From the NCBI GenBank assembly GCA_944326515.1, contig CALVEI010000012.1, forward strand, positions 1 through 43,165: a stretch of 43,165 bases of DNA. Direction: 5' to 3'. This DNA comes from Candidatus Gastranaerophilales bacterium (GTDB lineage Bacteria > Cyanobacteriota > Vampirovibrionia > Gastranaerophilales > Gastranaerophilaceae). Position numbers and translations under genes: made by a program. Every line of letters starts with the position of its first letter. The stretch's first letter is position 1. Shown here one piece after another: positions 135 to 43,165 of this stretch. The notes beneath the pieces are model-generated. The model was not told the origin of the DNA. It saw only the letters and a list, made by a program, of their open reading frames with translations, and ran no database searches.

Positions 135-476
135 TTAATTTTGGGACACCTTATTAGAAGATGTTTCTGCCATATACATGTTCATGTACAGTATCTTATT
201 TGCAGTAGCCTTGTCTAAGTTAATAAACTTAAGACCTGCTTTATCTCCTGTTACTCTTACAACTTCCACTTCAGGAGAAGCTTTGATATTGTGATAATCT
301 AAGCTAATTACAAATTTTTCTCCCTTAACAAGCGAACCGTCGTGAACAACAGCAAGACCGCCTCTTGATATGTTTTCAATAGCTATAATACGTTTACGCT
401 TTTCTTTTTCTTTTTTATTGGATACCATGACATATCCGTCACCTTTAGCTATTTCAAACCTTATTGAATCACGTTT
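135..476 (-). other. PilZ domain encoded at the 3' end of the giant adhesin gene
   Basis: Residues 5549-5655 of the adhesin have the PilZ pattern: KRDSIRFEI contains RxxxR (Arg5550 and Arg5554), followed about 29 residues later by NISRGGLAVV, which contains [D/N]xSxxG (Asn5583 to Gly5588). After this come the usual barrel strands ending in VEVVRVTGDKAGLKFINL. In known PilZ proteins these two motifs hold cyclic di-GMP. Both motifs appear intact, so nucleotide binding is chemically plausible. The location, on a protein with a Sec signal peptide, is at odds with the cytosolic pool of c-di-GMP. The domain call rests on motif recognition, not on a profile search. Confidence 0.8.
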
Positions 477-12400: not shown

Positions 12401-15400
12401 CAATTGTAGAATTATCAACAATTGTAGAATTATCAACAATTGCAGAAACCTCATTTTCAATTATGTCAGTGGCCATAGCACCAGAGAATGTATAAGCACC
12501 AGTAGCCCCATTTACAACTACACCACCTACGCCAACAGATACAATATCTTCTGTTAATCTAGAAGCATCTTTGTTAGCTGCAACTGAAACGTTATTTAAG
12601 TTATTCAATGTGGAAGTTTGAATTTTTGCTTCAGTATTTTTATTGATGATATTTAAATTACCACCCATGCCGGCACCAACAGATGTCGAACCACCTTTGC
12701 CTGCACTAACAGCCAATCCACCTGCACCTTTATATGCAGTTGAATGATTTTCTGCATCAACATCAACATCAATTTTTCCGCCCGCATTATTTGAAACAGT
12801 GGCATTTTTAATTGAAGCAGCCACAGTATTTTCAAGAACATCAGCATTGAATGAGCCACCGGCTACTACAGTTGTTGTAGTATCATCTTTATCTTTTTTA
12901 CCTACTCCAACACCAATTGCAACCTGAATATTATCATTGCTTTCATTAGCCTTAACATTCAATTTATTGTTATCTGTTAAGTTTTTGTTGAATATGATAT
13001 TTGTGCCATCGATATTTGTGCCATCGATATTTGTGCCATCGATATTTGCGATTGTTTGGTTAGAATTCTGAATAAAATTAACAGCAGCACCAGCTCCTAC
13101 AGTTGCCGCATTAGCAACACCACCACCAATATTCAAAGATTTTGTAGTCTGGCTTGCTTCCACATTTACGTTATTACCAACATTAATTGTAGCATTACCA
13201 ATCTCTGCCTTTACAACAGACTCGTTAATTTGTGTATTAACAGAACCTGCTGCTGCAACAGATATATTGCTTCCCTGACCTTTAGAGGCATCTAAATTAT
13301 CTAAAGAGCCAGCTTCTTTTCCTGTAGAACCTTGATATTTAACATCATTGCCATTAGCGTCCTTTAAAGTAGTTTCACCTGACACTAAATTTTTGCTATC
13401 AGAATCAACCTTATAATCCTTACCGTCTACAGAAATATTTTTGTCTGTAGATACAGAAGTGTCAGTGGATGTTGAAGCTAATTTGTTTTTTATTTTATTG
13501 AATACATCTCCTGTTTTTGATAATGCAGAATTCAATATTCCACCTGAAGAAGATTCAGGCTTTTTAACTTTAACACCACCAGCGAACGCACCAGCAAAGG
13601 CTAGGTTAAGAGATTGAGTTCTACTATCAGCATTTACAGTTAAACTATCATTTAAAGTTATTTCGGCACCATCAGCAATAGTTGCAGAGACCGCTCTATC
13701 AAACAAACTAACATTTACAGACGCTCCAACAGCTCCACCTGATGAACTGCTTCCACTACCACCCTCTAATTCTTGCTCAGAGGTTGCACCTGCGAATAAA
13801 ATATTAGATATACCATCATTTATAGTTGTTGCTTGTTCGTTTAAAGACAACAAACCTGATGTTTCATCAATTCCACCAAAATTACTAATAGTAGGAGAAG
13901 ACAAATCAGGATCAAACCCTACATCAAAATTTCCATCGGTAGGTAAATCATCCCATATTTTATCCCAAGAGAATAAATTATCCTCTGCTTTTGCAATCTC
14001 ATTTAATTTTGCACCACCTACTTTAACATTTAAATTATTAGCATTTATTAGTGCTTTTCCAACAGAAGATGATGTTGTACCATCAAAATTTTGTACTGTA
14101 ACACTACCTGAAATAGAAAAACCATCTTTGCCAGATGCCTTGCTGCCAGTATTTACAACAGTAACAAATTGATTTTCAGTTCCTGATAGTACATCAACAT
14201 TACCATTTGCGCTAACCTTAGCATTGTCATCAATCAATGCTTTTGTATTGTTAGTTACGCTTTCAACAATAACATTACCGCCAACACCATTTGCACCAGA
14301 TACTGCACCCGAAGGCAAAATCAACAATTTGTTGATATCACCTGCTGCGTTGTACTGAACAGTTTTATTAGCAGCATTAACTATAACATCGCCACCAGAC
14401 ACATCTGCATATTGACCAATTTGTGCAACTGTATCATTTTTGACAGCTGAAGAAATCACAGAAGCTGACAATCCCATACCCTCTGTTGTTTTTGATGTAG
14501 TTGCCGCCCAGTTATTAAAGAATCCTGCTAAGCCTTTAGAATCTTTGACACTAGTTTTAAATCCTGTTAAAACATTACTAATATCGGCAGATACTTCTCC
14601 AACAGGGTTTGTTATACCTTGTAAAAGAAGACGAATATCCCAGTCTTCACCCCATTCTGCTTTTATATTTCCAATAGCATCACTAGGCAAATTCGTTAAG
14701 TCGTAGCCAGTTTGCAACAAATTCAAAATGAATTCTATTGTTGCACTGTTTCTAGGCAATTCAGTTGTGGCGTTTACATCCAACTTATTATTTGCAACAA
14801 CTGTTGCGTGATTTGTATCCGTACCAGATTCAATCACAGCTTTTGTTGAATTGTTCTGTTCATTAACAATAACAGCAACACCTGGGTTCGGTATAAAGCC
14901 AGATACACCGGAACTTCCACTACCGTCTTTTTTACTTTCAATTTTTACATTAGACGTCGCATTATTAACTGTTAAATCTATTGTGTTTGCATTGACCTTA
15001 ACATTGTCAGCATGTACAGATGCATTTTTACCAATAGTTGCATTTGTATTAACATTAGAATCATTAATAACTGTTGCAACACTAACATTTGGCAAACCTG
15101 ATGTGTCAATAATAGGTCCATTGCCGCCCATATCCAAAAGTCCAGCAAATTTATCAACAACTTTGGATAAAATTTGTGATTTCATTTTATCTATGAAATT
15201 TTTCTTAGGTGCATCCGATGTTACATCAGCCTTTGCAATAGTAGAACCCATATAAAGATTTTGTGCGTTTACAGACACACTACCTTTATCGTGAGTGTTA
15301 ATTTTAGTGTCTATTAATGCACTGGTATTTATATGAGTATTATTAATATTAACAGCAACTGCAGCACCTGAATTTGCATCAGGGGTTATATTAGCCAAAG

Positions 15401-17120: not shown

Positions 17121-17292
17121 ACAAAATCCCTATTTTATAACTTATTAAACCAGTTTAAATTAACCCCAAAAGTGTTTCAGCAAATTATAACAAATTATCA
17201 CGATTTCTTTAAAAATCGTTACATGCTATTACAAACAACAAGTTTTAAGTTAGTATATACAAGTGTCTCTGAAAAGAAGTGGAAAAGGGTTA
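17121..17292. promoter_or_regulatory. Divergent promoter region between tpsA-like and tpsB-like genes
   Basis: This short region must serve both the adhesin (leftward) and its transporter (rightward). For the adhesin, the minus strand carries a perfect extended -10 (TGTTATAAT, plus-strand positions 17184-17192) about 65 bases before the start codon. For the transporter, TGCTATTAC at 17224-17232 is a weaker extended -10 candidate. A 7-bp inverted repeat (ACGATTT 17200-17206 with AAATCGT 17213-17219) lies between them and could be an operator. An 8-bp palindrome GTATATAC sits at 17253-17260. All assignments are by eye. Confidence 0.5.
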
Positions 17293-19302
17293 ATGCAAAA
17301 ACATATAAAAAGTTTTATCTTACTTGCAGTATTTATATCAGTACTGTCGTCTGGTACTGCAAATGCAGAACCAATTGGTGGTTATGTTCCTGCTGAGTTA
17401 AATTATGGTGGAGCATTGATGAATCACGATATGATGATGATCAAAGAAAAACAACGCCAAAGAGACGAAGCAGAAGATTTTCAAAACTTCCAAGAAAGAA
17501 AAAAGAACAAAAACAAAAAAGAAAGTGTTATAAACGACAATTCTGACAGCACTGAAAAAATATACGATGAAGAATCATCTAAAAAATTAAAAGAAGAACA
17601 CCAAAAACTACAAGAAGAAAAAGCTAAAAAAAAATCTTTTTTTAAAAGAAAAAAAAAGAAGCAAGACTCACAACCAGAAGAATCTACCAATTCAGAAATA
17701 ACAGAAAAGACAGAAACAACTACAACGATAAAAGCTAAAGTTGATAAATCTCCAATGCAAGACGGAAAGGTTTACATAAGAGCAGTTGCTGTAACAAACT
17801 CTAAAATCCTGTCCGACATGGAGATTCAATCTTTAACAGACAATGTTATCGGCAAATATGTGACATTTGATGACTTAGAAAAGCTCGTTGTAGATTTCAA
17901 CTATATTTATGCATCAAAAGGTTACGTAACAGCTAGGGCATTTTTACCCCCGCAAACAATAGAAAACGGCGTAGTAAAAATAAATCTTGTTGAAGGTACA
18001 GTAGGTGAAATAACTGTGTCTGATAACAAATACACGAGCAGCAATTACGTAAAAAAAAGAATTTCTGCTAAAAAAGGAGACATATTTGAAATTGTCGAAC
18101 TTGAACAAGACATACTTAAGTTCAACAAATATAACGACGGAATAAAACTAAAAGCAAACCTCAACAAGGGTAAAGAAATTGGAACAACTGATATAAACAT
18201 AAAAGCAGAAGAAAGATTTCCTTTCAGAGTCACTGCTCTTATGGACAATGCTGGTAGAAAAACCATTGGGGAATTAAGAGGCGGACTTATGGCACAAGCA
18301 GATAGTTTGTTCCATCAAAGAGACCGTTTAACATTGGGCTCTTATGCAAGCAGACATTCTGTAACGCCATTTGCTGACTACAATATACCTGTTAACAAGC
18401 ATGATGGCAGAGTTGGATTCTTATTTTCTTCAAGTTACGCACAAATTGGAGAAGGTCCTTACAAAATATTTGATATAGAAAGCCGTTCATTCAACTACTC
18501 TCTATACTATACTCACCCACTTATAAGAAAACCAAATTTCGAATTAAACGGTTACGCTGGTATCAACTACAAAACAGCTGCAACAGCTTTTGGTGGATAT
18601 ACAATTAACCGAGATAAAATATCAAGCGCAGAGGTTGCCTTAAATGCCAGATACGACACTAAACGTGGTATTTGGTATTTAAATCAAGGTGCATATCAAG
18701 CGTTTCCTATTTTCGATGACACATCAAAATACTTCAAATATACAGGTAGTTTGATAAGATTACACGACTTTGGACACGGTATTGTCGGACAATTCAGAGG
18801 TATGTACCAATTTTCACCTCAAGATGTAATTCCTTATATAGACCAATTCCAAGCTGGTGGTTTGGCGACAATAAGAGGTTACTCAGAAGGTCTTTTGATT
18901 GGTCGTTCTGGTTACATAATAAGTACAGAACTTTTATTCCCAATTGCACCGCAAAAAATCTCAGTTAAAAAGAAAAACGAAAAAAGAGAAATACCTTTTC
19001 TAGGAAGATATGTTAAAGGTATTGTATTTGTTGACCACGCAGGAATTTATCCTTTTAAAGGAGAAGGTCCGGGAGCACAGAGTTACAATCAAAGTGACTA
19101 TATGTTGAGTATGGGTCTGGGTTTAAGAATTACATTACCGGGTGACGCAACAGCAAGATTATATTGGGGTTGTCCTTTAATGCATAACCCTCATGAAACT
19201 TATTACAGAAACCCACGTTTCAGTTTTGAAATATCACTTTCACCTGATATAGATAGGATTCTTAAATACAGAAAAAGCCTAAAAAATAAAGAAACTTTGT
19301 AA
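17293..19302 (+). CDS. TpsB / FhaC-ShlB family outer-membrane transporter for the adhesin
   Basis: This is the predicted outer-membrane beta-barrel that moves the adjacent giant adhesin across the outer membrane. From the ATG at 17293 (669 residues) a clean signal peptide begins MQKHIKSFILL and cleaves near ANA-E. An in-frame GTG at 17263 would add ten polar residues ahead of it, so I prefer the ATG, which has AAAAGGG just upstream. Residues about 45-150 are an unusually charged Lys/Glu linker. Two POTRA repeats follow (about 160-234 and 235-310), then the barrel with the family's IRGY motif (about residue 527) expected in loop 6. Canonical TpsB proteins are 550-600 residues, so the excess is the charged linker. 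The gene is divergent from its substrate rather than upstream in one operon. It ends before a clear terminator. Confidence 0.93.
   Translation: MQKHIKSFILLAVFISVLSSGTANAEPIGGYVPAELNYGGALMNHDMMMIKEKQRQRDEAEDFQNFQERKKNKNKKESVINDNSDSTEKIYDEESSKKLKEEHQKLQEEKAKKKSFFKRKKKKQDSQPEESTNSEITEKTETTTTIKAKVDKSPMQDGKVYIRAVAVTNSKILSDMEIQSLTDNVIGKYVTFDDLEKLVVDFNYIYASKGYVTARAFLPPQTIENGVVKINLVEGTVGEITVSDNKYTSSNYVKKRISAKKGDIFEIVELEQDILKFNKYNDGIKLKANLNKGKEIGTTDINIKAEERFPFRVTALMDNAGRKTIGELRGGLMAQADSLFHQRDRLTLGSYASRHSVTPFADYNIPVNKHDGRVGFLFSSSYAQIGEGPYKIFDIESRSFNYSLYYTHPLIRKPNFELNGYAGINYKTAATAFGGYTINRDKISSAEVALNARYDTKRGIWYLNQGAYQAFPIFDDTSKYFKYTGSLIRLHDFGHGIVGQFRGMYQFSPQDVIPYIDQFQAGGLATIRGYSEGLLIGRSGYIISTELLFPIAPQKISVKKKNEKREIPFLGRYVKGIVFVDHAGIYPFKGEGPGAQSYNQSDYMLSMGLGLRITLPGDATARLYWGCPLMHNPHETYYRNPRFSFEISLSPDIDRILKYRKSLKNKETL
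17626..17657 (+). repeat. Clustered homopolymer tracts (A9, T7, A9) in the transporter gene
   Basis: Within 32 bp of the charged linker are nine A (17626-17634), seven T (17637-17643) and nine A (17649-17657). All are coding (Lys and Phe codons). They lie upstream of the POTRA and barrel regions, so a one-base slip would abolish the transporter. Confidence 0.85.
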
Positions 19303-31688: not shown

Positions 31689-34082
31689 TTAATTTGTTTG
31701 CCCAGTTTTAATAAGATTAATGTATTTATCTAAAGCACCGCCTTCGTTATCCCAGCTAAAGTCATTTTCCATAGCTGTTTTTTGCATTGCTTTAAATTTA
31801 TCGTGATTATTGTAATAAGTGTCAAGCCCTCTTTCAATCACATCACAGAAAGCGTCATAGTTGTTACTAAAGCCTCCACCATACAAGAGTTTTTTGTCTC
31901 CTGTTTCATCAAAAAATGCTTTAGTTCTAAAACCATCAACACCATCTTTAACAGTATTAACAAGACCACCTGTAGAAGTAGCAAGAGGCAATGCACCTTT
32001 GGCCATAGCTTCTAACTGAGTAAGACCGCAAGGCTCAAATACAGATGGAACCAAGAACATATCCGCTGCAGTAGCTACTAAATTTGTATTCAAGAAGCCA
32101 TTAACTAGAATTATTCTCTTACCAACATTCGGATAGTATTCTGTCATATAGTGCTTGAATTCTTTTAATTTATCGTATGAAGCTTTTTGAGAAATTGCAC
32201 CACCGATAATAAATACAGGTAATTTTTCTTCAGGAGTATTTTTATTGTGTTCTGCAAACTTCCACATAGCTTCTTTAAATATAGAATCCATACCTTTTTG
32301 TGGATCAACACGTCCAGAATATGCAATAACAGGTGTGTTGCTAAAATCATTTTCTTTTAATTCGGTTCTATCTGCCTCAAAAAGCATATATCTTCTTGAA
32401 TGAGAAGGATCTTCGTTATAACCAAGATACCTTTCTCTTTCAATAAGCTGTTTAAATACATTCATAATAGTATTTTTGTTTTGAACTTTTACATCAAGAG
32501 ATTTTGAATCGTAAGCTTTTAACTTAGTATCTTTAAAATCAATTTTTGGAGCATTAGCGTCTGACAAAGTCATATCTTTTTTAGTTGCATCCCATAATGA
32601 TTTCATATTTTTATCTGTTGGCTCAATCAATGATTTAGAATATCCGTTAGTAATTGGTGTTAATGTATGTCCAGGCCCATAGAAACGAGCTTTCATAAGA
32701 TCCATCATACCTCTTGCTTTTTCATTAGAATGAACGAGTTCTTGAGCATAGTATTCAGAAACAGGTACAACTCTGTCAACAAGTGACATACCAGTTTTTG
32801 CAGAGTTGAAATTTGTATAGCGCATCAAAGCACTCTTATCTTCATCAAATGCTTCATTCCAGCTTTTTGAATTAGGAATTATATCTACACCATAAGCGCC
32901 AAACAACGTACCGAAAATATTTTTTCTTGCCCAATCATTTCCATCTGTCGCACCTTGGTGCTCACAGTTGTGAGCAATGTAGATAGTTGGTGTTTCATCA
33001 AAATATCTTCCTGTTTCCTTAGATATTACACCTGTATCAGCTTCAGCATTAGCTGTATAGTGCATCATAGCAGCCAATGAACCTGCATGCCAGTCATTTA
33101 ACAAGACAGTGTTCGGCGCATCTATACCTTTAAAGTCTCCTTCTTTAATGCTCTTCATAAGTTCATAAACACCTTTTGAAAAATAAGCCATTCTGTATAC
33201 TGGATCAGCAAATTCAGTATTTGCGTATGGGGTATTATTGTTAGTTGCTTTTGCATCTTTATCAAGAATATTAAAGAACTGATTAAATGTTGTGAATTGT
33301 CCGTTTGCATCATCACCATATTCAGGAACTTCTAAGAAGATATATTTTGTTGGTTTTGGTTTATCAGACATCAACTCAGTAGTAAATATTCTCACATCCA
33401 TATCTTTCAAACGAGTGTTGTGAGGAGGACCAAAATACATAGGTACGTTAATTTTACCTTCATATTTAACTTCTCTTTGTTTTTCACCTTTTTTACCGTA
33501 GTGATAAATATATTTGTTATCTTTTTCGTTATACTCTAATCTGTATTCTTTACCATTGACATACATTGGAGTAACTACAGACATAAAATTCTTTGAATCT
33601 TTATTGAATTTTTTATTGAAACTATTAGGTAAATCTGCTGCAACTTTTCCTAAACCACCGTCTGACTTAAATTCATCAGTTTCAGCTGTCACCATCCAAG
33701 CATTAATATTTTCAATTTTAGGCCAAGGACGTGTACCATTAATTCTTGTTGAAGCTTCATTGTAAATCTTGCTCTTAGCATAATCTGATAATGTAGGAGC
33801 AAATGTATCAACATCAAAATCTTGACCATAAGGTTTTACCAAAGTTTGTGTCATTGGAATAACCGGAACAAATTCTTTATTATCAGCGCCATGTCGTGTT
33901 GGAGCATAACCAAAAGAAACTATAGACTTATTTTGATTAGCCATTAAAGCAAGAAAATTTTCCAACAACTGTGGATTAGAAGCATCCAATTGCGCTGTTT
34001 GATTAGTTTTTTGTTTGTCGTTTTTAGAGTGCAACTGCACTTGACCTAACTTAGGTGTTAACACTTTTTGAATAGTTGCCAT
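31689..34082 (-). CDS. glgA: Starch/glycogen synthase (GT5) with extended N terminus and insertions
   Basis: It is predicted to transfer glucose from ADP-glucose (or UDP-glucose) to growing alpha-1,4-glucan. WMVTAETDEFKSDGGLGKVA (about 129-148) is the N-terminal donor-binding motif; here it reads KSDGGL where GlgA normally has KTGGL. VPSVFEPCGLTQLEAMAKGA followed by STGGL is the catalytic GT5 C-terminal signature, and AYSGRVDPQKG opens the second Rossmann domain. Typical GlgA is about 480 residues; this protein has 797, with about 125 residues ahead of the catalytic fold and large insertions within it. The N-terminal region contains VSFGYAP (55-61) and is otherwise Gln/Asn-rich. AGGA precedes the ATG. 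It is a single gene, with no other glycogen genes beside it. Confidence 0.88.
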   Translation of the reverse strand: MATIQKVLTPKLGQVQLHSKNDKQKTNQTAQLDASNPQLLENFLALMANQNKSIVSFGYAPTRHGADNKEFVPVIPMTQTLVKPYGQDFDVDTFAPTLSDYAKSKIYNEASTRINGTRPWPKIENINAWMVTAETDEFKSDGGLGKVAADLPNSFNKKFNKDSKNFMSVVTPMYVNGKEYRLEYNEKDNKYIYHYGKKGEKQREVKYEGKINVPMYFGPPHNTRLKDMDVRIFTTELMSDKPKPTKYIFLEVPEYGDDANGQFTTFNQFFNILDKDAKATNNNTPYANTEFADPVYRMAYFSKGVYELMKSIKEGDFKGIDAPNTVLLNDWHAGSLAAMMHYTANAEADTGVISKETGRYFDETPTIYIAHNCEHQGATDGNDWARKNIFGTLFGAYGVDIIPNSKSWNEAFDEDKSALMRYTNFNSAKTGMSLVDRVVPVSEYYAQELVHSNEKARGMMDLMKARFYGPGHTLTPITNGYSKSLIEPTDKNMKSLWDATKKDMTLSDANAPKIDFKDTKLKAYDSKSLDVKVQNKNTIMNVFKQLIERERYLGYNEDPSHSRRYMLFEADRTELKENDFSNTPVIAYSGRVDPQKGMDSIFKEAMWKFAEHNKNTPEEKLPVFIIGGAISQKASYDKLKEFKHYMTEYYPNVGKRIILVNGFLNTNLVATAADMFLVPSVFEPCGLTQLEAMAKGALPLATSTGGLVNTVKDGVDGFRTKAFFDETGDKKLLYGGGFSNNYDAFCDVIERGLDTYYNNHDKFKAMQKTAMENDFSWDNEGGALDKYINLIKTGQTN

Positions 34083-34219
34083 TTTTTCATTCCTAATTTA
34101 TATATATTCTCTCAGTAATTGTTTTAATACTCCTAAAAATATTTTTTGTTAGCTTAAATCAGAAAACTAAATAAAAGTTACAATTTTTAATAATGTGTTA
34201 ACTATGATAATATAAGTCT
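34083..34219. promoter_or_regulatory. Divergent region between the starch synthase and SulP genes
   Basis: This 137-bp AT-rich spacer must hold both promoters. No pair of boxes is convincing. The SulP ATG has no Shine-Dalgarno sequence. On the minus strand AGGA precedes the synthase start. Confidence 0.35.
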
Positions 34220-35839
34220 ATGACTTTGGCAGAAACTTTACAAAACAAAATAAAAATTTTAACTGGAGATATTTTTGGAGGGATAAATTCTGCAATTATA
34301 ACACTTCCTCAAGCTTTGGCCTTTGGTGTAGCAACAGGTTTTGGTGCCGGAGCTGGTATATGGGGTGCAATCATTTTATGTTTTGTTGCAGGGATGCTTG
34401 GTCCAAGAATACCAATTATATCAGGGACTACAGGCCCTGTCGCTATCGTCGTTGCATCAATGATGCTGGCTCTAAACAACAATATACAAGCAGCAGTAAC
34501 TGTACTATTAACAGCAGCGTTACTACAGTTATTAGCGTCATTAACAAACCTGCCAAATATGGTTAAATATGTGCCATATCCTGTAATATCAGGATTTATG
34601 AATGGAGTTGGAATAATAATTATAATTCTTCAATTAAATCCTTTAATTGGTCATAAAGCGATGCCTTCTACTATAGCAACAATTACAAATATAAATGAAA
34701 GCATACATTCTCTGAACCATTCTGCTTTATTTATTGGCTTAATAACCCTTGCTATAGTCTTTTTAACACCGAAAGTAATAAATAAAATTGTGCCATCACA
34801 AATAATTGCTCTAATTTTTTGTACTTGGCTTTCTCTTAAACTGGGATTGAATGTAGAAAAAATTAACGAAATTTCTGTTTCTTTCCCAACACTTGTTGCT
34901 CCATATTTTGACTTAAGCCACGTAATAGAATACCTTCCATATGCATTTACAATCGCAATAGTTTTTTCAGCAGAAAGTATGTTGACTGGGCTTGTAACAG
35001 ATTCTTTAACAAAAACAAGACATAACCCAAAATTACTTTTAGCTGCACAAGGAATCGGAAATATGATATGCTCACTAACCGGTTCGCTGGGTGGTACTGC
35101 AGCAACAATGAGGACAGTTGCAGCAATTAATGCAGGAGCAACAACCAAAATTTGTGCAATTATAAATCCATTACTTTTAATAGTTTTATTATTTAAATGT
35201 TCAAATTTTGTAGCAGAAATACCTTTAGCTGTACTAGCAGGTATTTTAATAAAGATAGGCTATGACATTATTGATGTAAAACTACTAAAAGTTTTAAAGT
35301 ATGCACCTAAAGATGATTTGTATGTTTTATTTTTAGTGTTTCTGCTAACTGTATTTTACAACTTGATTTTTGCGGTAGGAGCTGGCATAACGCTATCTGC
35401 GTTGTTATATGCTAAAAGAGTTGCAGATAAAGCAAAACTTGTACATAAATCAGTCTATGACAAAGACATAATGGATATGGAAAAACATCTTGAAGAAGAT
35501 TATAAACACAAAATCAGAGTTGTGCACATTAGCGGACAATTTTTCTTTGGTTCAGCTACACAGCTTATTTCAAAATTTGAAGATATGCTCGGTACTCAAT
35601 ATTTGATTTTAAACTACGAAGCAGATGACTTGTTAGATATATCAGCAATATTTGCATTGGAAGATATCATACTAAGACTTCAATCACAAGAGGTTGAAAT
35701 AATACTTGTTATAAAAAGTGAAAATGTATTAAAACAACTGCAAGACCACAAAATAGTCGCTCAAATAGGAGAAAAGCAAGTATTCTTTACAGAGCTTATG
35801 GCAATTGATTACGCTAAAGATCAGCTAAAAAATCTATAA
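34220..35839 (+). CDS. SulP-family anion transporter with C-terminal STAS domain
   Basis: This 539-residue inner-membrane protein probably moves sulfate, bicarbonate or another anion. INSAIITLPQALAFGVATG near residues 22-40 is the SulP first-helix motif and IPIISGTTGPVAIVV (about 64-78) is the ISGPTG-like motif. About 10-14 hydrophobic segments run to about residue 405. Residues about 430-535 form a STAS domain with RVVHISGQFFFG and LLDISAIFALEDI. The substrate cannot be assigned; in cyanobacterial relatives SulP members include bicarbonate transporters. No Shine-Dalgarno sequence is seen. The last 26 bases overlap the convergent lipoate-enzyme gene. Confidence 0.92.
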   Translation: MTLAETLQNKIKILTGDIFGGINSAIITLPQALAFGVATGFGAGAGIWGAIILCFVAGMLGPRIPIISGTTGPVAIVVASMMLALNNNIQAAVTVLLTAALLQLLASLTNLPNMVKYVPYPVISGFMNGVGIIIIILQLNPLIGHKAMPSTIATITNINESIHSLNHSALFIGLITLAIVFLTPKVINKIVPSQIIALIFCTWLSLKLGLNVEKINEISVSFPTLVAPYFDLSHVIEYLPYAFTIAIVFSAESMLTGLVTDSLTKTRHNPKLLLAAQGIGNMICSLTGSLGGTAATMRTVAAINAGATTKICAIINPLLLIVLLFKCSNFVAEIPLAVLAGILIKIGYDIIDVKLLKVLKYAPKDDLYVLFLVFLLTVFYNLIFAVGAGITLSALLYAKRVADKAKLVHKSVYDKDIMDMEKHLEEDYKHKIRVVHISGQFFFGSATQLISKFEDMLGTQYLILNYEADDLLDISAIFALEDIILRLQSQEVEIILVIKSENVLKQLQDHKIVAQIGEKQVFFTELMAIDYAKDQLKNL

Positions 35840-36518
35840 AATCAATATCAAAATATTGTTCAAATCCCATTTTTAGCGCGCAACAAAGCTGCATATAATC
35901 AACATCAGACAAAATATCTCTTAAAAGACATATCTTTTCATTACAAGGTTTTTCTCCAAATATATTTTCAATTGTTGATTCATTGTAATCGAACATTATA
36001 GAGCCATGTTGTAAAATATATCCTTGAGAACGAAATTGCGCAGAACCAACAATTTTTCTAGTTTTGTAACTTAAATCAGCACCAGTAGAGAGCGACATAC
36101 AGTATTCAAATTTTGTTTTTGCTTTCGTTTCTGTGGGAAAATCTACATCAAGACCTAAAGATTTAAATCCATATGCTAAAGCAGAAGATATTTCTTTATA
36201 TGATTCAATAACAGTATCACCGTGCTTTAAAAAAGATGTAGGACATACAAAAGAATAAGTCAGCTCATTGTCATGTAATAAAGCACGACCACCGGTAAGT
36301 CTTCTAACAATATCTATATTATTATCCTTGCAAAATTGCTTGTTTAAATGTTCATCACTTTGATTTCTACCTAAAGAAACACAAGAAGGCTTCCACCCAT
36401 AAAATCTTAAAACAGGTAAATTTAAATTATTTTTGATAGCATAGTTTAATATTTTTTCATCCATATCCATATTGTATTCACCAGTATTAACAGAATATGG
36501 AATAAAAAACCCTTGCAT
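35814..36518 (-). CDS. Octanoyl/lipoyl transferase, LipM-like
   Basis: It acts in lipoate assembly on GcvH or E2 lipoyl domains. In the 234-residue protein, RRLTGGRALLHDNELTYSF (72-90) is the RRxTGGxAxxH motif of the biotin/lipoate protein ligase fold. EYCMSLSTGADLSYKTRKIVG (from 138) places Cys140 where LipM-type octanoyltransferases have their catalytic Cys. Lys155 in RKIVGSAQ is the conserved acyl-contact Lys, and LQHGSIMFD follows. The length fits LipM rather than the two-domain LplA ligase, so octanoyl transfer from acyl carrier protein is the likelier reaction. AAAGGTGG precedes the ATG. It is the last gene of the five-gene operon starting at 39614, and its 3' end overlaps the SulP gene. 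Confidence 0.85.
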   Translation of the reverse strand: MQGFFIPYSVNTGEYNMDMDEKILNYAIKNNLNLPVLRFYGWKPSCVSLGRNQSDEHLNKQFCKDNNIDIVRRLTGGRALLHDNELTYSFVCPTSFLKHGDTVIESYKEISSALAYGFKSLGLDVDFPTETKAKTKFEYCMSLSTGADLSYKTRKIVGSAQFRSQGYILQHGSIMFDYNESTIENIFGEKPCNEKICLLRDILSDVDYMQLCCALKMGFEQYFDIDFIDFLADL

Positions 36519-36543
36519 ATGACCACCTTTATAAAGTAAAAAA

Positions 36544-37428
36544 CTACAAATCCAATATTTTTTTTATTGCTGCAGGTATACAATCAATCAAATCAGTTGA
36601 AAGAACACTGTACTGAGTTAATGTTTCAGAAGCTATTTCACCACAAAGGCCGTGCATATAAACTCCAAGTATAGCGGCTTCTTTTATCCCAAGCCCTTGA
36701 GCTAACAAACCTGATATTATTCCTGTCAATACATCACCACTGCCTGCTTTGGCTAAAGCAGAGTTTCCACTGGTATTTATAAAGACTTCTTTTTCTTGCG
36801 TAGCAACAACTGTATTATGACCTTTCAGAATAACAACACAATTAAATTTATCTACAGCCATAAGTGCATATCTGATTCTGTCATGTTGTATATCATCTAA
36901 TGAAACACCAAGAAGTCTAGATAACTCCATAGGATGAGGCGTAATCACTGTATTTTTAGGTAAAAAAGAAATATTAAGAGCAGAAATAATATTCAAAGCA
37001 TCAGCGTCTAAAACAACCTTCTTATCAGTATTACATAAGCTGTGAATTAATTTAAGAATAAAATTACTAACAGCAGGCAATGTTGACAAACCTGGTCCGA
37101 TAGAAATTGTGTTGTATTGTTCCAAAATACCTGCAATCTGTTCAATTGCTGACTCATCAATACACTTATTTCCACAAGAGTTTAAAGGAAATAGAGTAAC
37201 ACATGGAGAAAGACTAACCATATTGTTAATAACAGGCTCAATTGAAGCCAGAGTAACAAGCCCTGCACCAACTTTTAACGGAGAAACAGAAGCTAAAAAG
37301 GCTGCCCCTTGATAAAATAAAGAACCAGCAATATTTAAAACTTTACCGTAAGTTCCCTTATTAGAAAGATCAGAACGTAAAGGCATATAATCCTTTACAA
37401 ATTCTTTAGTTATAAGAGTATGTTCCAT
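36544..37428 (-). CDS. nnrD: ADP-dependent NAD(P)HX dehydratase
   Basis: It repairs hydrated NADH and NADPH (NAD(P)HX) by dehydration, using ADP in bacterial enzymes. The 294-residue protein is the ribokinase-like YjeF C-terminal domain only. The N-terminal epimerase (NnrE) domain found in fused bacterial enzymes is absent and no nnrE gene is visible nearby. NKGTYGKVLNIAGS (23-36), VVLDADALNI (138-147), ITPHPMELSRLLG (162-174) and AGSGDVLTG (228-236, Asp232 catalytic) are the family motifs. Its ATG follows the TrmL stop directly, with GGAG seven bases ahead, so translation is probably coupled. Confidence 0.92.
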   Translation of the reverse strand: MEHTLITKEFVKDYMPLRSDLSNKGTYGKVLNIAGSLFYQGAAFLASVSPLKVGAGLVTLASIEPVINNMVSLSPCVTLFPLNSCGNKCIDESAIEQIAGILEQYNTISIGPGLSTLPAVSNFILKLIHSLCNTDKKVVLDADALNIISALNISFLPKNTVITPHPMELSRLLGVSLDDIQHDRIRYALMAVDKFNCVVILKGHNTVVATQEKEVFINTSGNSALAKAGSGDVLTGIISGLLAQGLGIKEAAILGVYMHGLCGEIASETLTQYSVLSTDLIDCIPAAIKKILDL

Positions 37429-37893
37429 TTAAACTCCGATTTGTCTTAGTGCTTCATAGACAACTATCGCAACAGAGTTTGATAAATTCAAGCTCCTTTG
37501 ACCGTCTTGCATGGGTATAGTTAAAGCAGTACTTTCTTTTTCTTTAAGCAAATCTTCAGGAAGTCCTCTTGTTTCAGGCCCAAAGACAAGAAAATCACCA
37601 TCTTTAAATTTAACATCTGTATAAAGATTTTTTGTCTTTGTAGTCAGATAGTAAAAAGTACTTTGAGGAAACTTTTCCCATAAATCTTCAAGATGTTCTA
37701 TTCTTTGTATGTTAACGGAATCCCAATAATCAAGCCCTGCTCTTTTTAAGTGTCTACTGTCAATCGAAAACCCAAGTTTACCAATTAAATATACGTCACT
37801 ATTAGTGCAAGCGGCAAGTCTTACAATATTACCTGTATTTTGAGGTATTTCCGGTTCATACAGAACGATATTAAGCTTCGTCTTTATTTTCAT
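37429..37893 (-). CDS. trmL: tRNA (cytidine/uridine-34-2'-O)-methyltransferase TrmL
   Basis: This SPOUT-fold enzyme methylates the ribose of the wobble base in certain leucine tRNAs, using S-adenosylmethionine. At 154 residues it has the standard length. The three SPOUT motifs are visible: PEIPQNTGNIVRLAA (14-28), LVFGPETRGLP and IPMQDGQRSLNLSNSVAIV. Its start overlaps the end of the upstream phosphatidyltransferase gene by 23 bases and there is no other Met near the N terminus. Coupling to upstream translation is likely because the local ribosome-binding site is weak. Confidence 0.93.
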   Translation of the reverse strand: MKIKTKLNIVLYEPEIPQNTGNIVRLAACTNSDVYLIGKLGFSIDSRHLKRAGLDYWDSVNIQRIEHLEDLWEKFPQSTFYYLTTKTKNLYTDVKFKDGDFLVFGPETRGLPEDLLKEKESTALTIPMQDGQRSLNLSNSVAIVVYEALRQIGV

Positions 37894-38575
37894 CTTTAGG
37901 TTTTTCCGCAGGTGTTTCTACAAAAAATCTTTTACTTTCAATAAGAACAGGCAAGCCTCTCAATACGCAGAATATAACAGCTGCATATACACAGAAGTGA
38001 GCAAACGGACAAATCATTATACAAATATCATGAAAATGACTCCAAGCAGCAGTTGCCTGAGCTGATAAAGCAGGGTCTTCACCTTGAAGGAACAAATTCA
38101 TAGTAGCAAATGGGAAGTTGCACAAAATCATTAGAGCAAAAGCAAGGGCTTTAGTTACAGCATATGAACCTCTTGAAAAATTAGACGCTACTAAAAAATG
38201 TCCTAATTTAGTTTTCATCATAGTTGTTTGACCAAAAGCTGTATAACCTTGCTCAAGAGCGATACTTCTAACACCGTCAGTTAAAATACCTCTTGTTACA
38301 ACAATTAAGGGGATCCATACAGGAATCCAGCCTAAAACAGCAAATACAATCCAATAAATATTTTCTACAACTCTATCACCAAGAATATCGAGAACCGCAC
38401 CAAATTTAGAGCTTTCATTTAATAATCTAGCAACAAAGCCATCCAAACCGTCAAACCAAATTGCAATTACAGTCAAAATAAAAGCTGTAATATATGACGC
38501 AGGTGTTTGATAGAACAAAAGACATATTGCGATAAATGCAATAATCATTCTTAAAATTGTAATCATATTAGCCAT
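37871..38575 (-). CDS. CDP-alcohol phosphatidyltransferase family enzyme (PgsA-like)
   Basis: This inner-membrane enzyme transfers a phosphatidyl group from CDP-diacylglycerol to an alcohol. FDGLDGFVARLLNESSKFGA (41-60) continues to VLDILGD (61-67). Together they give the complete catalytic motif DxxDGxxAR-x8-GxxxDxxxD (Asp42, Asp45, Asp63, Asp67). The 234-residue length and several membrane helices fit. The family includes phosphatidylglycerol-phosphate and phosphatidylinositol-type synthases; the acceptor is not clear here, and PgsA-like is a best guess. The C-terminal 20 residues are charged and polar. GAGGAG before the ATG is strong. It lies 28 bases downstream of the oxidoreductase. Confidence 0.88.
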   Translation of the reverse strand: MANMITILRMIIAFIAICLLFYQTPASYITAFILTVIAIWFDGLDGFVARLLNESSKFGAVLDILGDRVVENIYWIVFAVLGWIPVWIPLIVVTRGILTDGVRSIALEQGYTAFGQTTMMKTKLGHFLVASNFSRGSYAVTKALAFALMILCNFPFATMNLFLQGEDPALSAQATAAWSHFHDICIMICPFAHFCVYAAVIFCVLRGLPVLIESKRFFVETPAEKPKDENKDEA

Positions 38576-38603
38576 CTTAAATACTCCTCGTTTTTCTCAA
38601 TAG

Positions 38604-39614
38604 TTATTGTTTACTTCTAGATGATGCAAAGTTGTGTTGGTTCAAAAGCTTTAATTTATCGCCCAACATCATTTTTTCAGCATCTTCAAGAATTTTTACT
38701 ACAAAATATCCGTTTTCTCCGTCACTTCTGGCTTTTTTGCCATTTTCAATACATTTAACAAAATGTTCGCATTCAAGTTTTAACGGTTCAATTTCAATAT
38801 AATCAAGTGAAATATTGCTTCCTGAGTTAGGTTTGTCATTTTTAAATACCTGAAGTTTATTTTCCTTCAAAGTATCATCAAACATAGCAGAACCTTTAGT
38901 TCCTCTTAACATGAGATTAACTCTTTTTTGAGGATGAATCCAACTGTCAGAAATATGAGCAATACAACCTGACTCATATTCAATCTCAATATGAGTAATA
39001 TCCATAATCTCATTACCTTCAGAGCTTACACCCATAGCAGAGATAACTTGAGCAGGTTCTTCACCTAAAATGTAGCTGACCATAGAAACATCATGCGGAG
39101 CTAAGTCCCACATAACACTTCTGTCATTTTTAAAATAATTTATATTTAATCTATCAGATTGAACATATTTAATTTCGCCAAGTTCACCTGATTCAACAAT
39201 CATCTTAAGTCTGTTTACAGCAGGATGGTATAAAAGCAAATGTCCGACCATTAAAACAAGATTTTTAGATTCAGCAATTTCTTTTAACTGCAATGCTTCT
39301 TCACTGGCTGTTGCAATAGGTTTTTCAACATAAACGTGTTTGCCTGCTTCTAATGCCATTTTTACAAGCTTAAAGTGTGTGTGACTAGGAGTTGCAATAA
39401 CAACCGCGTTAATGTCTTTGTTATTTAACACCTCATTAAAATCAGGTGTAGTGTAAATTTCAGGATAATCAGCGTTAACTTTTTTTCTGTTTTCTTCATC
39501 CATATCACAAACGGTATGAAGATAGTTAAGATTGTAAAAATTTCTAACTAAATTTTTGCCCCAAATACCCGCTCCTAATACGGCTACTTTTGTGGATGGT
39601 TTATCAAAACTCAT
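38604..39614 (-). CDS. Gfo/Idh/MocA family NAD(P)-dependent oxidoreductase
   Basis: It is a 336-residue sugar dehydrogenase-type enzyme. The N-terminal Rossmann motif GAGIWG is at 14-19, VIATPSHTH at 72-80 and the catalytic-site EKP at 97-99 (HVYVEKPIA). WDLAPHDVSM in the second domain supplies the conserved His/Asp. Relatives include UDP-N-acetyl-hexosamine 3-dehydrogenases of surface-glycan pathways, but sequence alone does not fix the substrate. AGGGGA before the ATG is a strong ribosome-binding site. It is the first gene of a five-gene operon; its neighbours are lipid, tRNA, cofactor-repair and lipoate genes, so context does not point to one pathway. Confidence 0.88.
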   Translation of the reverse strand: MSFDKPSTKVAVLGAGIWGKNLVRNFYNLNYLHTVCDMDEENRKKVNADYPEIYTTPDFNEVLNNKDINAVVIATPSHTHFKLVKMALEAGKHVYVEKPIATASEEALQLKEIAESKNLVLMVGHLLLYHPAVNRLKMIVESGELGEIKYVQSDRLNINYFKNDRSVMWDLAPHDVSMVSYILGEEPAQVISAMGVSSEGNEIMDITHIEIEYESGCIAHISDSWIHPQKRVNLMLRGTKGSAMFDDTLKENKLQVFKNDKPNSGSNISLDYIEIEPLKLECEHFVKCIENGKKARSDGENGYFVVKILEDAEKMMLGDKLKLLNQHNFASSRSKQ

Positions 39615-39649
39615 TTATAATCCCCTACTTCAAACTATTCAATTAACTA

Positions 39650-39679
39650 ATTATATCAACGGAGAAAGCAAAAAATCAA
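39650..39679 (-). promoter_or_regulatory. Promoter of the 39614-35814 operon
   Basis: On the minus strand TTGATT (plus coordinates 39674-39679) and TATAAT (39650-39655) are 18 bases apart, and TGA just ahead of the -10 makes it an extended TGnTATAAT. Transcription would start about 29 bases before the ATG at 39614. Confidence 0.6.
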
Positions 39680-39790
39680 ATTAATATTATGTAAAGGTAA
39701 TATTTTTTTATTAAATCATGTAAAGAAATGATAAGCAATCTGCAAAAACGTGTTTAAGAACTAATAAAAATGGGAACTATAAAAATAGGT

Positions 39791-39845
39791 TATAATTTTT
39801 GGTTAGTTTGGCCGAAAAAACTTGAAAATATAAAAGGGTATTAAT
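39791..39845 (+). promoter_or_regulatory. Candidate -10 and ribosome-binding site for the Pmp-like gene
   Basis: A perfect TATAAT lies at 39791-39796 with no clear -35 ahead. AAAAGGG just before the ATG at 39846 is a good ribosome-binding site. The rest of the 231-bp spacer has no gene. Confidence 0.4.
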
Positions 39846-42800
39846 ATGAGCGTTTTTCTAAGTAAATTAAACACAAAGATATTAACAGCAGCATTTGTCT
39901 TATCAGTAATAGCAATGCCTGCGCTTGCAGATGTGCCGACTCCAACATTAGATAGTGTAAAAGCACAGCAATCTGCATTTTTAAATACAGATTATTCAAC
40001 ATACAGCTTAACTGAAATCACAGCTGATGTGACAGCACCGGATGGCGCAATCACTGTTAATATCGGCGGTAAAGAGTATTTCTATACCCCGACAGATAAC
40101 AAAGATGTACTACAGTTACTTTCTGCAACAGGAAGTACAGCGTTAATAGAAACTACACAAGATAAAGCACTTTATTCAACACCTGAGGGCAAGTATTACA
40201 CCTATGATACAAACAAATTAAAAGATTCTGCTTATACACTGACAGAAGCAGCATCTGCAGACGAGCCAAATACTATAACTCTTTACAACAAAAATGCAGA
40301 TGGAACAATTTCTCCAAAGTATTACACTGTCTCTTTAAAACAAACAGAATACGGAAACCCAAACGGTGATACAACACTAACCTACGGTTGGGAAAAGAAT
40401 GCGGATACAGGTAATCTTGAATTTAAACAAGACCCGACAACGCCTGTAGGTCAAACTATAATTTATAAATACTCAGAGATGGATTTTTCTGATGTGAAAA
40501 AAGATAATACCCTTGATAAAGGTACAATAGAAGACCCGTTAGGCGATTATTTGATAGAAGGAGGAGCAGCATTAATCAATCCAAACGGTACAACAACATC
40601 TGTAAATAATGTTTTGTTTAAAGATAACAAAGTCACTGCAAAATTAACTTCAACAACTTCTAGTTACAAACATGCTAGTGTTTTAGGCGGATCTATATAT
40701 AACGCAGGTGATATAACAAGCATAACTGGTACATTCATTAATAATGGCGTAGATACAACCGTAGTTGCAATTGATGGTAGCATAGTTACATATTCAGGTG
40801 GTGGAGCGATTGGAAACACAGGAACAATAGGCAACATCACAGGCGATTTTATCGGCAACTATGCTCAAAGCTCTTCTAATGCCTATGGCGGAGCGATTTA
40901 TAACTATGGAACAATCGGAGATATCACAGGCGATTTTATAGGCAACTATGCTCAAGGTAGTACTTCTGCCTATGGTGGAGCGATTTATAATGATAGAGGA
41001 ATAATAGGAGACATCACAGGAGATTTTATCGGTAACTATGCTCAATCTGATTCTGTATATACAGAAGGCGGAGCGATTTATAACTATGCGCAATATGGTA
41101 GTAATGCAACAATAGGAGACATCACAGGCAATTTTATTGGCAACTACGCTCAATCTGATTCTGATTATTATCATGTCTATGGCGGAGCGATTTATAACTA
41201 TAGAGGAACAATAGGAGACATCACAGGCGATTTTATTGGCAACTATGCACAAGGTTCTTATGCCAATGGCGGAGCGATTTACAACTATGAAGATGCAACA
41301 ATCGGCAACATCACAGGCGATTTTATCGGCAACTTTGCTCAAGGTAAATATGCCTATGGCGGCGCGATTTGCAACTATGAAGATGCAACAATCGGCAACA
41401 TCACAGGCGATTTTATTGGCAACTATGCTCAAAGCTCTTCTTATGCCGAAGGCGGAGCGATTGATAACGATGGAACAATCGGCGACATCACAGGCGATTT
41501 TATAGGCAACTATGCTCTATCTAATTCTTATGAAGCCTCTGGCGGAGCGATTTATAACGATAGAGGAACAATCGAAAATATCACAGGTGATTTTATAGGC
41601 AACTATGCTAAATCTGATTCTTCTTCTGCCTATGGCGGAGCGATTTATCACTATGGTTATGATAAAGGAACAATCGGAGATATCACAGGCGATTTTATAG
41701 GCAACTATGCTCAAGGTTCATATTATGCCTCTGGCGGAGCGATTTATAACTATTCATATTCTAATTCAACAGCAACAATCGGAGATATCACAGGCGATTT
41801 TATTGGCAACTATGCTCAATCTGATTCTTCTTCAGCTTATGGCGGAGCGATTTATAACTATGCTAACTTTGGAACAGCAACAATCGGAAATATCACAGGC
41901 GATTTTATAGGCAACTATGCTCAAGCAAACAGTAATTACGCTTTAGGCGGTGCTATATACAATTGTATATATTCATCAAGCAACAAAGCAACAATCGGTC
42001 TTACAAACAACAACTTCTTAAACAACTACGCTATATCTCAAACTGGTACAGATATGGCAAAAGGCGGTGCGATATTTACCAACTATGACCTTACATTAAA
42101 CGCCGATAACGGAACTTCATTAATCTCAGGCAACTATACTGAATCTAACGGAGTAAAAGAAAATAACGCAATCTACGTTGCAAATTACTCAAATTCATCT
42201 GGAACAATCCAACGTAATACAACACTAACCCTTAATTCAGTAAACAACGGCAAAATTCAAATAGATGACACAATCTCGGGCGGGTCTTATTACGTATATG
42301 GTAATAAATTCTGGGAAACCGCAGACCATGCATATAACTTAGCATTAACAGGTGACGGCACAGGCACAGTATCGTTGTACAACGATGTAGAAAATGCAAA
42401 AGTTACTGCACAAAACGTGACAGTTGACCTAGCCAACAACGAAACTCGCAACTACAATTTTGTATCTCTTACTGACAACGGGGGAACAAAATACAATATA
42501 GATGTTGATCTTTCAACAGGATTATCAGACAAAATAACTACAGAAAAAACATCATCAGGAACAATCTTACTAAATATTATCAATGTGATGAGTTCAACAA
42601 CTCAAGATGAAGTAACATTCCAAATATTAGATACTCAATCAGACAGCCTAAAACTGGCTTTAGGTGATAACATACATACTGTTCAAGGAATAAATGACAT
42701 TGTTACCGATGAAGTTTTTAATGATGATATATTCACAACTTTTGAAGGTATAAGACTTTCAACAACAAACACAACAAATGACAGTGTAACAATCCAAAAA

Positions 42801-43165
42801 TCAGGTGTATTTGATACTTTACAGTTAATAAATCAAAAAGAAAGCACAAACGAACGTAATTTCACCTTCAGAACAACAGACAACTACATAGCATCAAAAG
42901 ACCTTGGAACGACAACCAAAGGTACATTAAACATCAACGGTCTTGGCGTAACAACCCCATCAACAATAGACGCCAACAACCACACAATGTTTGACCTTCA
43001 AAATGAAACTACTTTAAACATATCAAATACAACAATCAAAAACGCTAAAGACTTTGCAATTAAAGCAGAAAATACAAACTCAGTCGTGAACCTTACTAAC
43101 GCATCATTTAAAGATACTCAAGGTACAGCAATTCAATCTAATGTAGATGTAAACATTACAGCAGA
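39846..43165 (+). CDS. Exported Pmp-like repeat surface protein, incomplete at the right edge
   Basis: An uninterrupted reading frame of 1,106 codons runs off the window. Residues 1-28 are a Sec signal peptide (MSVFLSKLNTKIL, cleavage after ALA). Residues about 30-310 are Thr/Asp/Asn-rich with no recognised domain. Residues about 320-700 hold twelve copies of a 29-36 residue unit, GGAIYNY-variable-TIGDITGDFIGNYAQ. Each copy contains GGAI and FxxN (FIGN), the two short motifs that define chlamydial polymorphic membrane protein (Pmp) repeats. Beyond 700 the sequence is a Thr/Asn-rich beta-helix type with one more GGAI. A C-terminal autotransporter barrel would be expected in this class but lies outside the window. 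Surface adhesion is the likely role. I checked every codon line by eye and saw no stop. Confidence 0.88.
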   Translation, partial: MSVFLSKLNTKILTAAFVLSVIAMPALADVPTPTLDSVKAQQSAFLNTDYSTYSLTEITADVTAPDGAITVNIGGKEYFYTPTDNKDVLQLLSATGSTALIETTQDKALYSTPEGKYYTYDTNKLKDSAYTLTEAASADEPNTITLYNKNADGTISPKYYTVSLKQTEYGNPNGDTTLTYGWEKNADTGNLEFKQDPTTPVGQTIIYKYSEMDFSDVKKDNTLDKGTIEDPLGDYLIEGGAALINPNGTTTSVNNVLFKDNKVTAKLTSTTSSYKHASVLGGSIYNAGDITSITGTFINNGVDTTVVAIDGSIVTYSGGGAIGNTGTIGNITGDFIGNYAQSSSNAYGGAIYNYGTIGDITGDFIGNYAQGSTSAYGGAIYNDRGIIGDITGDFIGNYAQSDSVYTEGGAIYNYAQYGSNATIGDITGNFIGNYAQSDSDYYHVYGGAIYNYRGTIGDITGDFIGNYAQGSYANGGAIYNYEDATIGNITGDFIGNFAQGKYAYGGAICNYEDATIGNITGDFIGNYAQSSSYAEGGAIDNDGTIGDITGDFIGNYALSNSYEASGGAIYNDRGTIENITGDFIGNYAKSDSSSAYGGAIYHYGYDKGTIGDITGDFIGNYAQGSYYASGGAIYNYSYSNSTATIGDITGDFIGNYAQSDSSSAYGGAIYNYANFGTATIGNITGDFIGNYAQANSNYALGGAIYNCIYSSSNKATIGLTNNNFLNNYAISQTGTDMAKGGAIFTNYDLTLNADNGTSLISGNYTESNGVKENNAIYVANYSNSSGTIQRNTTLTLNSVNNGKIQIDDTISGGSYYVYGNKFWETADHAYNLALTGDGTGTVSLYNDVENAKVTAQNVTVDLANNETRNYNFVSLTDNGGTKYNIDVDLSTGLSDKITTEKTSSGTILLNIINVMSSTTQDEVTFQILDTQSDSLKLALGDNIHTVQGINDIVTDEVFNDDIFTTFEGIRLSTTNTTNDSVTIQKSGVFDTLQLINQKESTNERNFTFRTTDNYIASKDLGTTTKGTLNINGLGVTTPSTIDANNHTMFDLQNETTLNISNTTIKNAKDFAIKAENTNSVVNLTNASFKDTQGTAIQSNVDVNITA
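40797..41962 (+). repeat. Tandem array of twelve GGAI/FxxN repeats with variable spacing
   Basis: The conserved core (ATCACAGGCGATTTT or a close variant) starts at 40836, 40923, 41013, 41121, 41220, 41310, 41400, 41487, 41580, 41682, 41787 and 41892. Spacings are 87-108 bp, always multiples of three. Conserved blocks are nearly identical at the DNA level, while the segment between NYAQ and GGAI varies in length and sequence. Degenerate copies flank the array at about 40711 and 41991. Confidence 0.95.

Follow-up and report, generated by a model that had tools for sequence, protein, structure and literature searches.

A tandem array of Pmp-like repeats in an autotransporter-like gene family of Gastranaerophilales: conserved site and changing array content between sister species

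In a Gastranaerophilales gene carrying a tandem array of Pmp-like repeats, we observed that the syntenic site is conserved between sister species while the array loses its unit order and identity, which is the new element reported here. The array is likely to be the passenger of a type Va autotransporter-like protein whose paralogs would exchange segments, the repertoire of surface loops changing as a result. The gene is found at the end of the window, by which we mean the whole stretch of 43,165 nucleotides that was analysed, and all the genomes compared were draft assemblies. The architecture, the beta-helix and barrel predictions, the loss of array orthology and the mosaic similarity described below were established computationally. 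Gastranaerophilales are gut bacteria of wide distribution that are practically uncultured, and little is known about the biology of their surface; a large recombining autotransporter family would offer a concrete handle on their interaction with host, phage and neighbours. A literature search, conducted mostly outside subscription journals, returned no description of this Gastranaerophilales family.

The open reading frame starting at 39846 contains 14 GGA[I] motifs in total, the last GGAI being located at 42063. Every one of 12 consecutive units contains GGAI followed by [T/I]I[G/E][D/N]ITG[D/N]FIGN[Y/F]A, as exemplified by GGAIYNYGTIGDITGDFIGNYAQGSTSAY, and all 12 are comprised within one open frame (Table 1). 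The array was reported independently by Tandem Repeats Finder, with main rows having periods of ~87-105 bases and 76-82% matches, and is therefore far beyond chance. The 14-residue core has a mean DNA identity of 90% (range 81-100%), with 11 distinct versions among the 12 units, and the mean DNA identity over whole units of the window array is 75%. Two stretches vary in length: the first, from GGAIYN to TIG, comprises 2-8 residues and the second, from NYA to GGAI, 6-10 residues. The preliminary description of this DNA, a twelve-copy tandem array with GGAI and FxxN in each unit, was thus right in kind. It overstated the identity by calling the units nearly identical in DNA, and named a single variable loop between the two motifs where there are two. 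That loops change length by whole codons is true, but is no special pattern, as any open reading frame requires it. On the minus strand, an antisense ORF of 212 codons (window 40794-41432) mirrors the array, and similar antisense ORFs are found at the paralogs; the ORF opposite the array is probably a by-product of codon composition.

Table 1. Features of the autotransporter-like gene and its neighbour in the window
Feature	Positions	Strand	Remarks
Gfo/Idh-type oxidoreductase gene	38604..39614	-	Named by eye; conserved neighbour marking the site
Autotransporter-like gene	39846..43165	+	1106 codons visible; signal-peptide-like start (MSVFLSKLNTKILTAAFVLSVIAMPALA), judged by eye
N-terminal segment collinear with the sister-species syntenic copy	39846..40294	+	blastn
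12 canonical GGAI...FIGNYA units	40800..41945	+	29-38 residues each; one predicted beta-helix rung per unit
13th, degenerate unit (GGAIYNCIYSSSNKATIGLTNNNFLNNYA...)	41946..42062	+	
Post-array segment	41956..42405	+	Identity to own-genome copy on C44 92.4%, to sister paralog L027 87.8%, to syntenic copy 78.9%
155 bases exactly matching the own-genome paralog on contig C44	42096..42250	+	Candidate conversion tract
Tail segment	42866..43165	+	Identity to the syntenic copy rises again, to 94.3%

The window and contig C12 (43165 bases) end at the same base, so that the gene is truncated, and its barrel-coding part, being past the contig end, is absent from the window. Contig C38 carries the downstream neighbour that is also present in the sister species (94% identity), and its own end falls within the final ~38 codons of the barrel, after which come a stop and a terminator-like hairpin (identified by eye). 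Judged by synteny alone, the missing last ~38 codons of the window gene are probably located on this contig. On the other side, the protein of the oxidoreductase neighbour is 99% identical between the two species. Upstream of the autotransporter-like gene, a promoter scan gave no signal above shuffles.

The PF02415 profile (Chlam_PMP repeat) matched the window protein with 26.3 bits for a cut-off of 20.6 (E 6.6e-6, 8 stretches) and matched single units weakly; the complete relatives L022 and L024 gave no PF02415 match at E up to 1. The TIGR01376 profile (POMP repeat) did not match the window protein at E up to 10, and the NCBIfam search gave nothing for it; the same profile does match other genes, on other contigs of the same genome. 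The Pmp middle domain was detected neither in the 8 relatives scanned with Pfam (E up to 1) nor in the Pfam scan of the window gene, cut short as it is by the contig end. In view of the missing TIGR01376 match and of the lack of middle domain in the scanned relatives, we describe the protein as Pmp-like and not as a chlamydial Pmp. The earlier assignment to Pmp-type repeats consequently holds at the profile level for PF02415, above its cut-off, but not for TIGR01376. The non-chlamydial host, pointed out in the preliminary description, is not surprising: according to the available part of PMC10715098, PF02415 is already known from more than 100 species that are not chlamydial, and we found a PF02415 match in 54 of the 194 genomes searched in the phylum.

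The passenger was modelled with AlphaFold2 over the region 40533-42515 from an alignment of 12 rows (mean pLDDT 90.2, pTM 0.91). The secondary structure of the model displays one rung per unit, with the variable stretches falling at turns, and the passenger is thus predicted to be a beta-helix. In this prediction the loops would project from the helix, as had been anticipated. Foldseek retrieved no PDB match to the passenger at E 0.001 or below. In the complete relatives, the passenger is followed by a C-terminal domain, which was modelled from 14 relatives (alignment A1, 14 rows) as a helix and 12 strands, with a pLDDT of 78.7. Its best Foldseek matches were EspP (E 8.6e-14), AIDA-I (E 1.1e-13) and BrkA (TM-score 0.85 by target). 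No PF03797 match was found at E up to 1 in the 4 scanned Gastranaerophilales relatives (L022, L024, L025, which is cut at its end, and L036), and the Gastranaerophilales barrel is therefore considered as diverged.

In its own genome, 38 matching stretches were found, corresponding to the window gene and 11 other places on contigs C44, C9, C3, C111, C49, C27 (two), C102, C114, C17 and C10. Contig ends are reached by 10 of the 11 other places, and several contig ends in the family have exactly 77 bases in common with another copy, so that paralogs may have been mis-joined. Genes of this kind fragment short-read assemblies, and their number is underestimated. Within the genus, the protein was matched in 20 of the 23 genomes, including its own, and the barrel type is present in all 23, with 2-21 matches each when fragments are counted. 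The occupancy of the site was examined in 8 of the 22 other genus members: the gene is at the site in the sister genome G018, 6 members have other genes beside the oxidoreductase, and the contig of G012 ends too soon. The single paralog place uncut by a contig end, L078 (positions 1019-4982 of contig C10, genome G000), has its frame broken by an in-frame TAA and is perhaps a pseudogene. At the starts of paralogs L070, L071, L072, L074, L075 and L076, a common peptide such as HSEQSEES or SECEESHK occurs in or upstream of the frames, which suggests an interspersed repeat element beside the paralogs. Another genome from this bacterial family has PF02415 matches within an 8459-codon open frame (G114:C7, around 329534-346162).

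The copy in G018 is located at the same site, inside a contig of 348,960 bases, and forms a complete open frame of 1728 codons with 16 GGA motifs, versus 14 in the window gene. Window positions 33844-40294 (6.45 kb, made up of flank and the first 449 gene bases) are 93.5% identical in DNA to the sister genome (blastn), and the first 449 gene bases alone are 86.9% identical to the syntenic copy. The mean unit identity between the window and syntenic arrays is 0.68 (maximum 0.82), to be compared with 0.75 and 0.69 within each. The unit order is no more collinear than in shuffled arrays, 634 of the 2000 shuffles reaching the best order-preserving match, and the other collinearity tests detected no retained unit order, L069 being nearest to significance (73/2000). 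Two further syntenic pairs were available, C3/L057 (7 kb, 89.6%), limited by the fact that L057 has only 2 canonical units, and C102/L036 (2.9 kb, 95.4%). In all 3 pairs, the identity between the syntenic arrays (0.680, 0.659 and 0.687) is lower than that between arrays belonging to different genes of the own genome (0.737, 0.742 and 0.749). These comparisons indicate that the content of the arrays is replaced far more rapidly than the genes on either side. The active expansion, contraction or gene conversion proposed in the preliminary description is to this extent supported between species, at three pairs.

Beyond the array, the gene resembles its paralogs and the syntenic copy in turn. Over the post-array segment, 12 sites are shared with the syntenic copy only and 65 with C44 only (p 5.9e-10); with L027 instead of C44, the numbers are 21 and 52 (p 3.7e-4). 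The N-terminal segment does not discriminate, since the syntenic copy and L027 are equally close to it (24 sites versus 24). The contrast of the two segments against L021 gave p 8.7e-4. Unit relationships were compared on 215 canonical units from 36 arrays in 13 genomes labelled Gastranaerophilales or Melainabacteria (one as 'uncultured bacterium'), leaving out L041, L045, L058, L061, L064 and the non-Gastranaerophilales loci. Units failing the motif pattern were dropped, and invariance at the pattern positions thus exists by construction. For 57 of the 215 units, the nearest neighbour belonged to the same array (shuffle mean 6.4, maximum 15); for 63, it belonged to a different array within the genome (shuffle mean 24.5, maximum 38). 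Together, the similarity to paralogs in the 3' part and the 155-base exact match indicate that members of this multigene autotransporter family undergo ectopic recombination or gene conversion.

In the mechanism that we favour, a signal peptide would export the protein to the periplasm and a C-terminal 12-stranded barrel, seen in the complete relatives, would carry the passenger across the outer membrane. The passenger would fold into a long beta-helix with one rung per unit, GGAI and FxxN forming its core and the two variable stretches forming turns beside the GGAI strand, probably exposed. The gene is one of at least a dozen family places in the genome. Their copies would recombine homologously through the repeated cores and so swap parts of their passengers, either by ectopic gene conversion or by unequal crossing-over, as a result of which the arrays would change far more quickly than the genes around them. 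The likely outcome would be a changing surface-loop repertoire serving adhesion and/or escape from phage, IgA or predators. We infer a variable-adhesin function for the family, and likewise its secretion, exposure, adhesion, immune variation, selective benefit and exact recombination mechanism.

Short-read assembly could have mixed the paralogs, making the mosaic pattern and the unit order chimeric. The 77-base ends, which have the size of a k-mer overlap, and the contig ends cutting the window gene and 10 of the 11 other places are what such an artefact would leave. We nevertheless regard it as unlikely, because the sister copy is a complete ORF well inside its contig, the 12 window units keep one open frame, turnover is observed at three syntenic sites, in two genomes that were assembled independently, and the post-array segment is close but not identical to C44 over 450 bases, unlike a simple mis-join. 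We hold it to be a little less probable still that replication slippage and unequal crossing-over act inside each array alone, with drift and with no exchange between genes. The frequent nearest neighbours in the same array would be accounted for in this way, as would the two DNA-identical units located three positions apart in array L023, but not the number of nearest neighbours in other arrays of the same genome, which exceeds the shuffle maximum, nor the mosaic pattern of the post-array segment, which is not repeated.

Turn positions in beta-helices tolerate change, and the array could be a passive spacer or stalk with unconstrained loops and no selection for variants. Such a role is somewhat unlikely, the argument against it being indirect: the comparable side loops of C. 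trachomatis Pmps concentrate epitopes and serovar variation according to the available part of PMC11166332, but these belong to another lineage. Very improbable, finally, is the acquisition of the gene as a chlamydial Pmp by horizontal transfer from Chlamydia. The PF02415 match and the motif pair in each unit speak for this origin, and it is opposed by the absence of a TIGR01376 match, by the absence of the middle domain in the 8 Pfam-scanned relatives, by the wide distribution of the repeat family within the window's own phylum and by a genome-contig scan in which none of the 47 loci was labelled Chlamydia.

The autotransporter-like protein and its family can be compared with three known groups. 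The passengers of the type Va autotransporters Ag43, AIDA-I and EspP are beta-helices. The window family resembles these proteins by its predicted beta-helix passenger and by a predicted barrel matching EspP, AIDA-I and BrkA, and differs by its Pmp-like passenger repeats and by its barrel with no PF03797 match at E up to 1. Chlamydial Pmps, described with side loops and a 12-stranded barrel in the part of PMC11166332 available, share with it a beta-helix passenger, FxxN/GGA[ILV] pairs, a C-terminal 12-stranded barrel, which in the window family is predicted from the complete relatives, and a multigene organisation (PMC10715098 and PMC11166332, as far as available). In contrast to them, the window units are regular with a longer common core (TIGDITGDFIGNYA), TIGR01376 and the middle domain are lacking as described above, the barrel of the scanned Gastranaerophilales relatives is unrecognised by PF03797, and arrays turn over between sister species. 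Lastly, PF02415 beta-helices of Trichomonas, Phycisphaerae and Methanobrevibacter are reported in PMC10715098; these predicted helices carry the same motif pair, but the accessible part of that paper does not present them as multigene families of recombining autotransporters. With the Gastranaerophilales family, the question of which parts of Pmp-type beta-helices vary could be put to a natural test away from Chlamydia, in a bacterium presumed to be commensal.

The 47 loci of the genome-contig scan are mostly from Gastranaerophilales, the others including Alphaproteobacteria, one Synergistaceae and one Akkermansiaceae record. The alphaproteobacterial units resemble those of the window, and the non-repeat N-terminal parts are homologous across phyla (L033: 33% identity, E 4e-14). 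The alphaproteobacterial proteins nevertheless have a PF03797 barrel at their end, as seen in L033 (E 2.1e-29), L056 (E 2.7e-26) and L059 (E 2e-23). Both barrels are of autotransporter type, the Gastranaerophilales one by fold prediction and the alphaproteobacterial one by PF03797. The profile comparison between them gave a probability of 2% and was not informative, so that the notion of different barrel families is based on sequence profiles. L063, labelled Alphaproteobacteria, and L066, labelled Akkermansiaceae, carry the Gastranaerophilales-type barrel, and any single contig could be mis-binned. The alpha_tmRNA was present in 4 of 6 genomes (those of L033, L056, L050 and L063) and absent from the genome of L059 and from G018, which supports the Alphaproteobacteria label at the level of the genomes but does not extend to the binning of individual contigs. 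A flanking-gene search used as a label check yielded 4 of 6, the Synergistaceae and Akkermansiaceae genomes among them, and was unhelpful.

In L033, the synonymous GC3 of the array is 0.37, versus 0.62 expected from the flanking genes (z -11); its N-terminal part deviates less (z -4) and its barrel fits the host (z +1.3). The other arrays gave z values of -6.3 (L030), -3.8 (L056), -1.8 (L055) and +0.2 (L059). As the arrays of the window and of L063 are also off their host (z +5.5 and +8.0, respectively), part of this signal may reflect codon constraint in the array. The best cross-phylum unit DNA identity is 0.79 and the median of best matches over 54 units is 0.74; with such values, no recent donor was found. 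The array of foreign composition on a host-like barrel in L033 suggests, from its sequence composition, a modular transfer between phyla. We tentatively consider it possible, though short of probable, that a pool of Pmp-like beta-helix cassettes circulates among gut phyla, recipients keeping their own barrel and swapping the passenger, with in-genome copies recombining to give changing loops. If true, such a cross-phylum exchange of modules, with each host retaining its barrel, would mean that surface proteins can evolve by an uncommon route. Mobile carriers of the passenger were dropped as candidates, as plasmids gave no match and none of 7 pattern matches in viral contigs was confirmed. Four weak matches to the passenger (29-37% identity) occur in a phage collection (MT836116, MT836501, MT838037 and MT836420); these are unannotated fecal 'Bacteriophage sp.' records, and may be bacterial DNA in viral preparations.

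Elsewhere in the window, a 5661-codon ORF (135-17120, minus strand) lies back to back with a TpsB-like exporter (17263-19302, plus strand; ShlB E 3.7e-24, POTRA_2 E 9.5e-18). The first 1500 codons of the ORF gave no Pfam match at E 0.001, and the two genes are possibly a two-partner secretion pair. A tandem repeat with a period of 441 bases (2.6 copies, 84% matches) is located inside this giant ORF, at 2770-3915.
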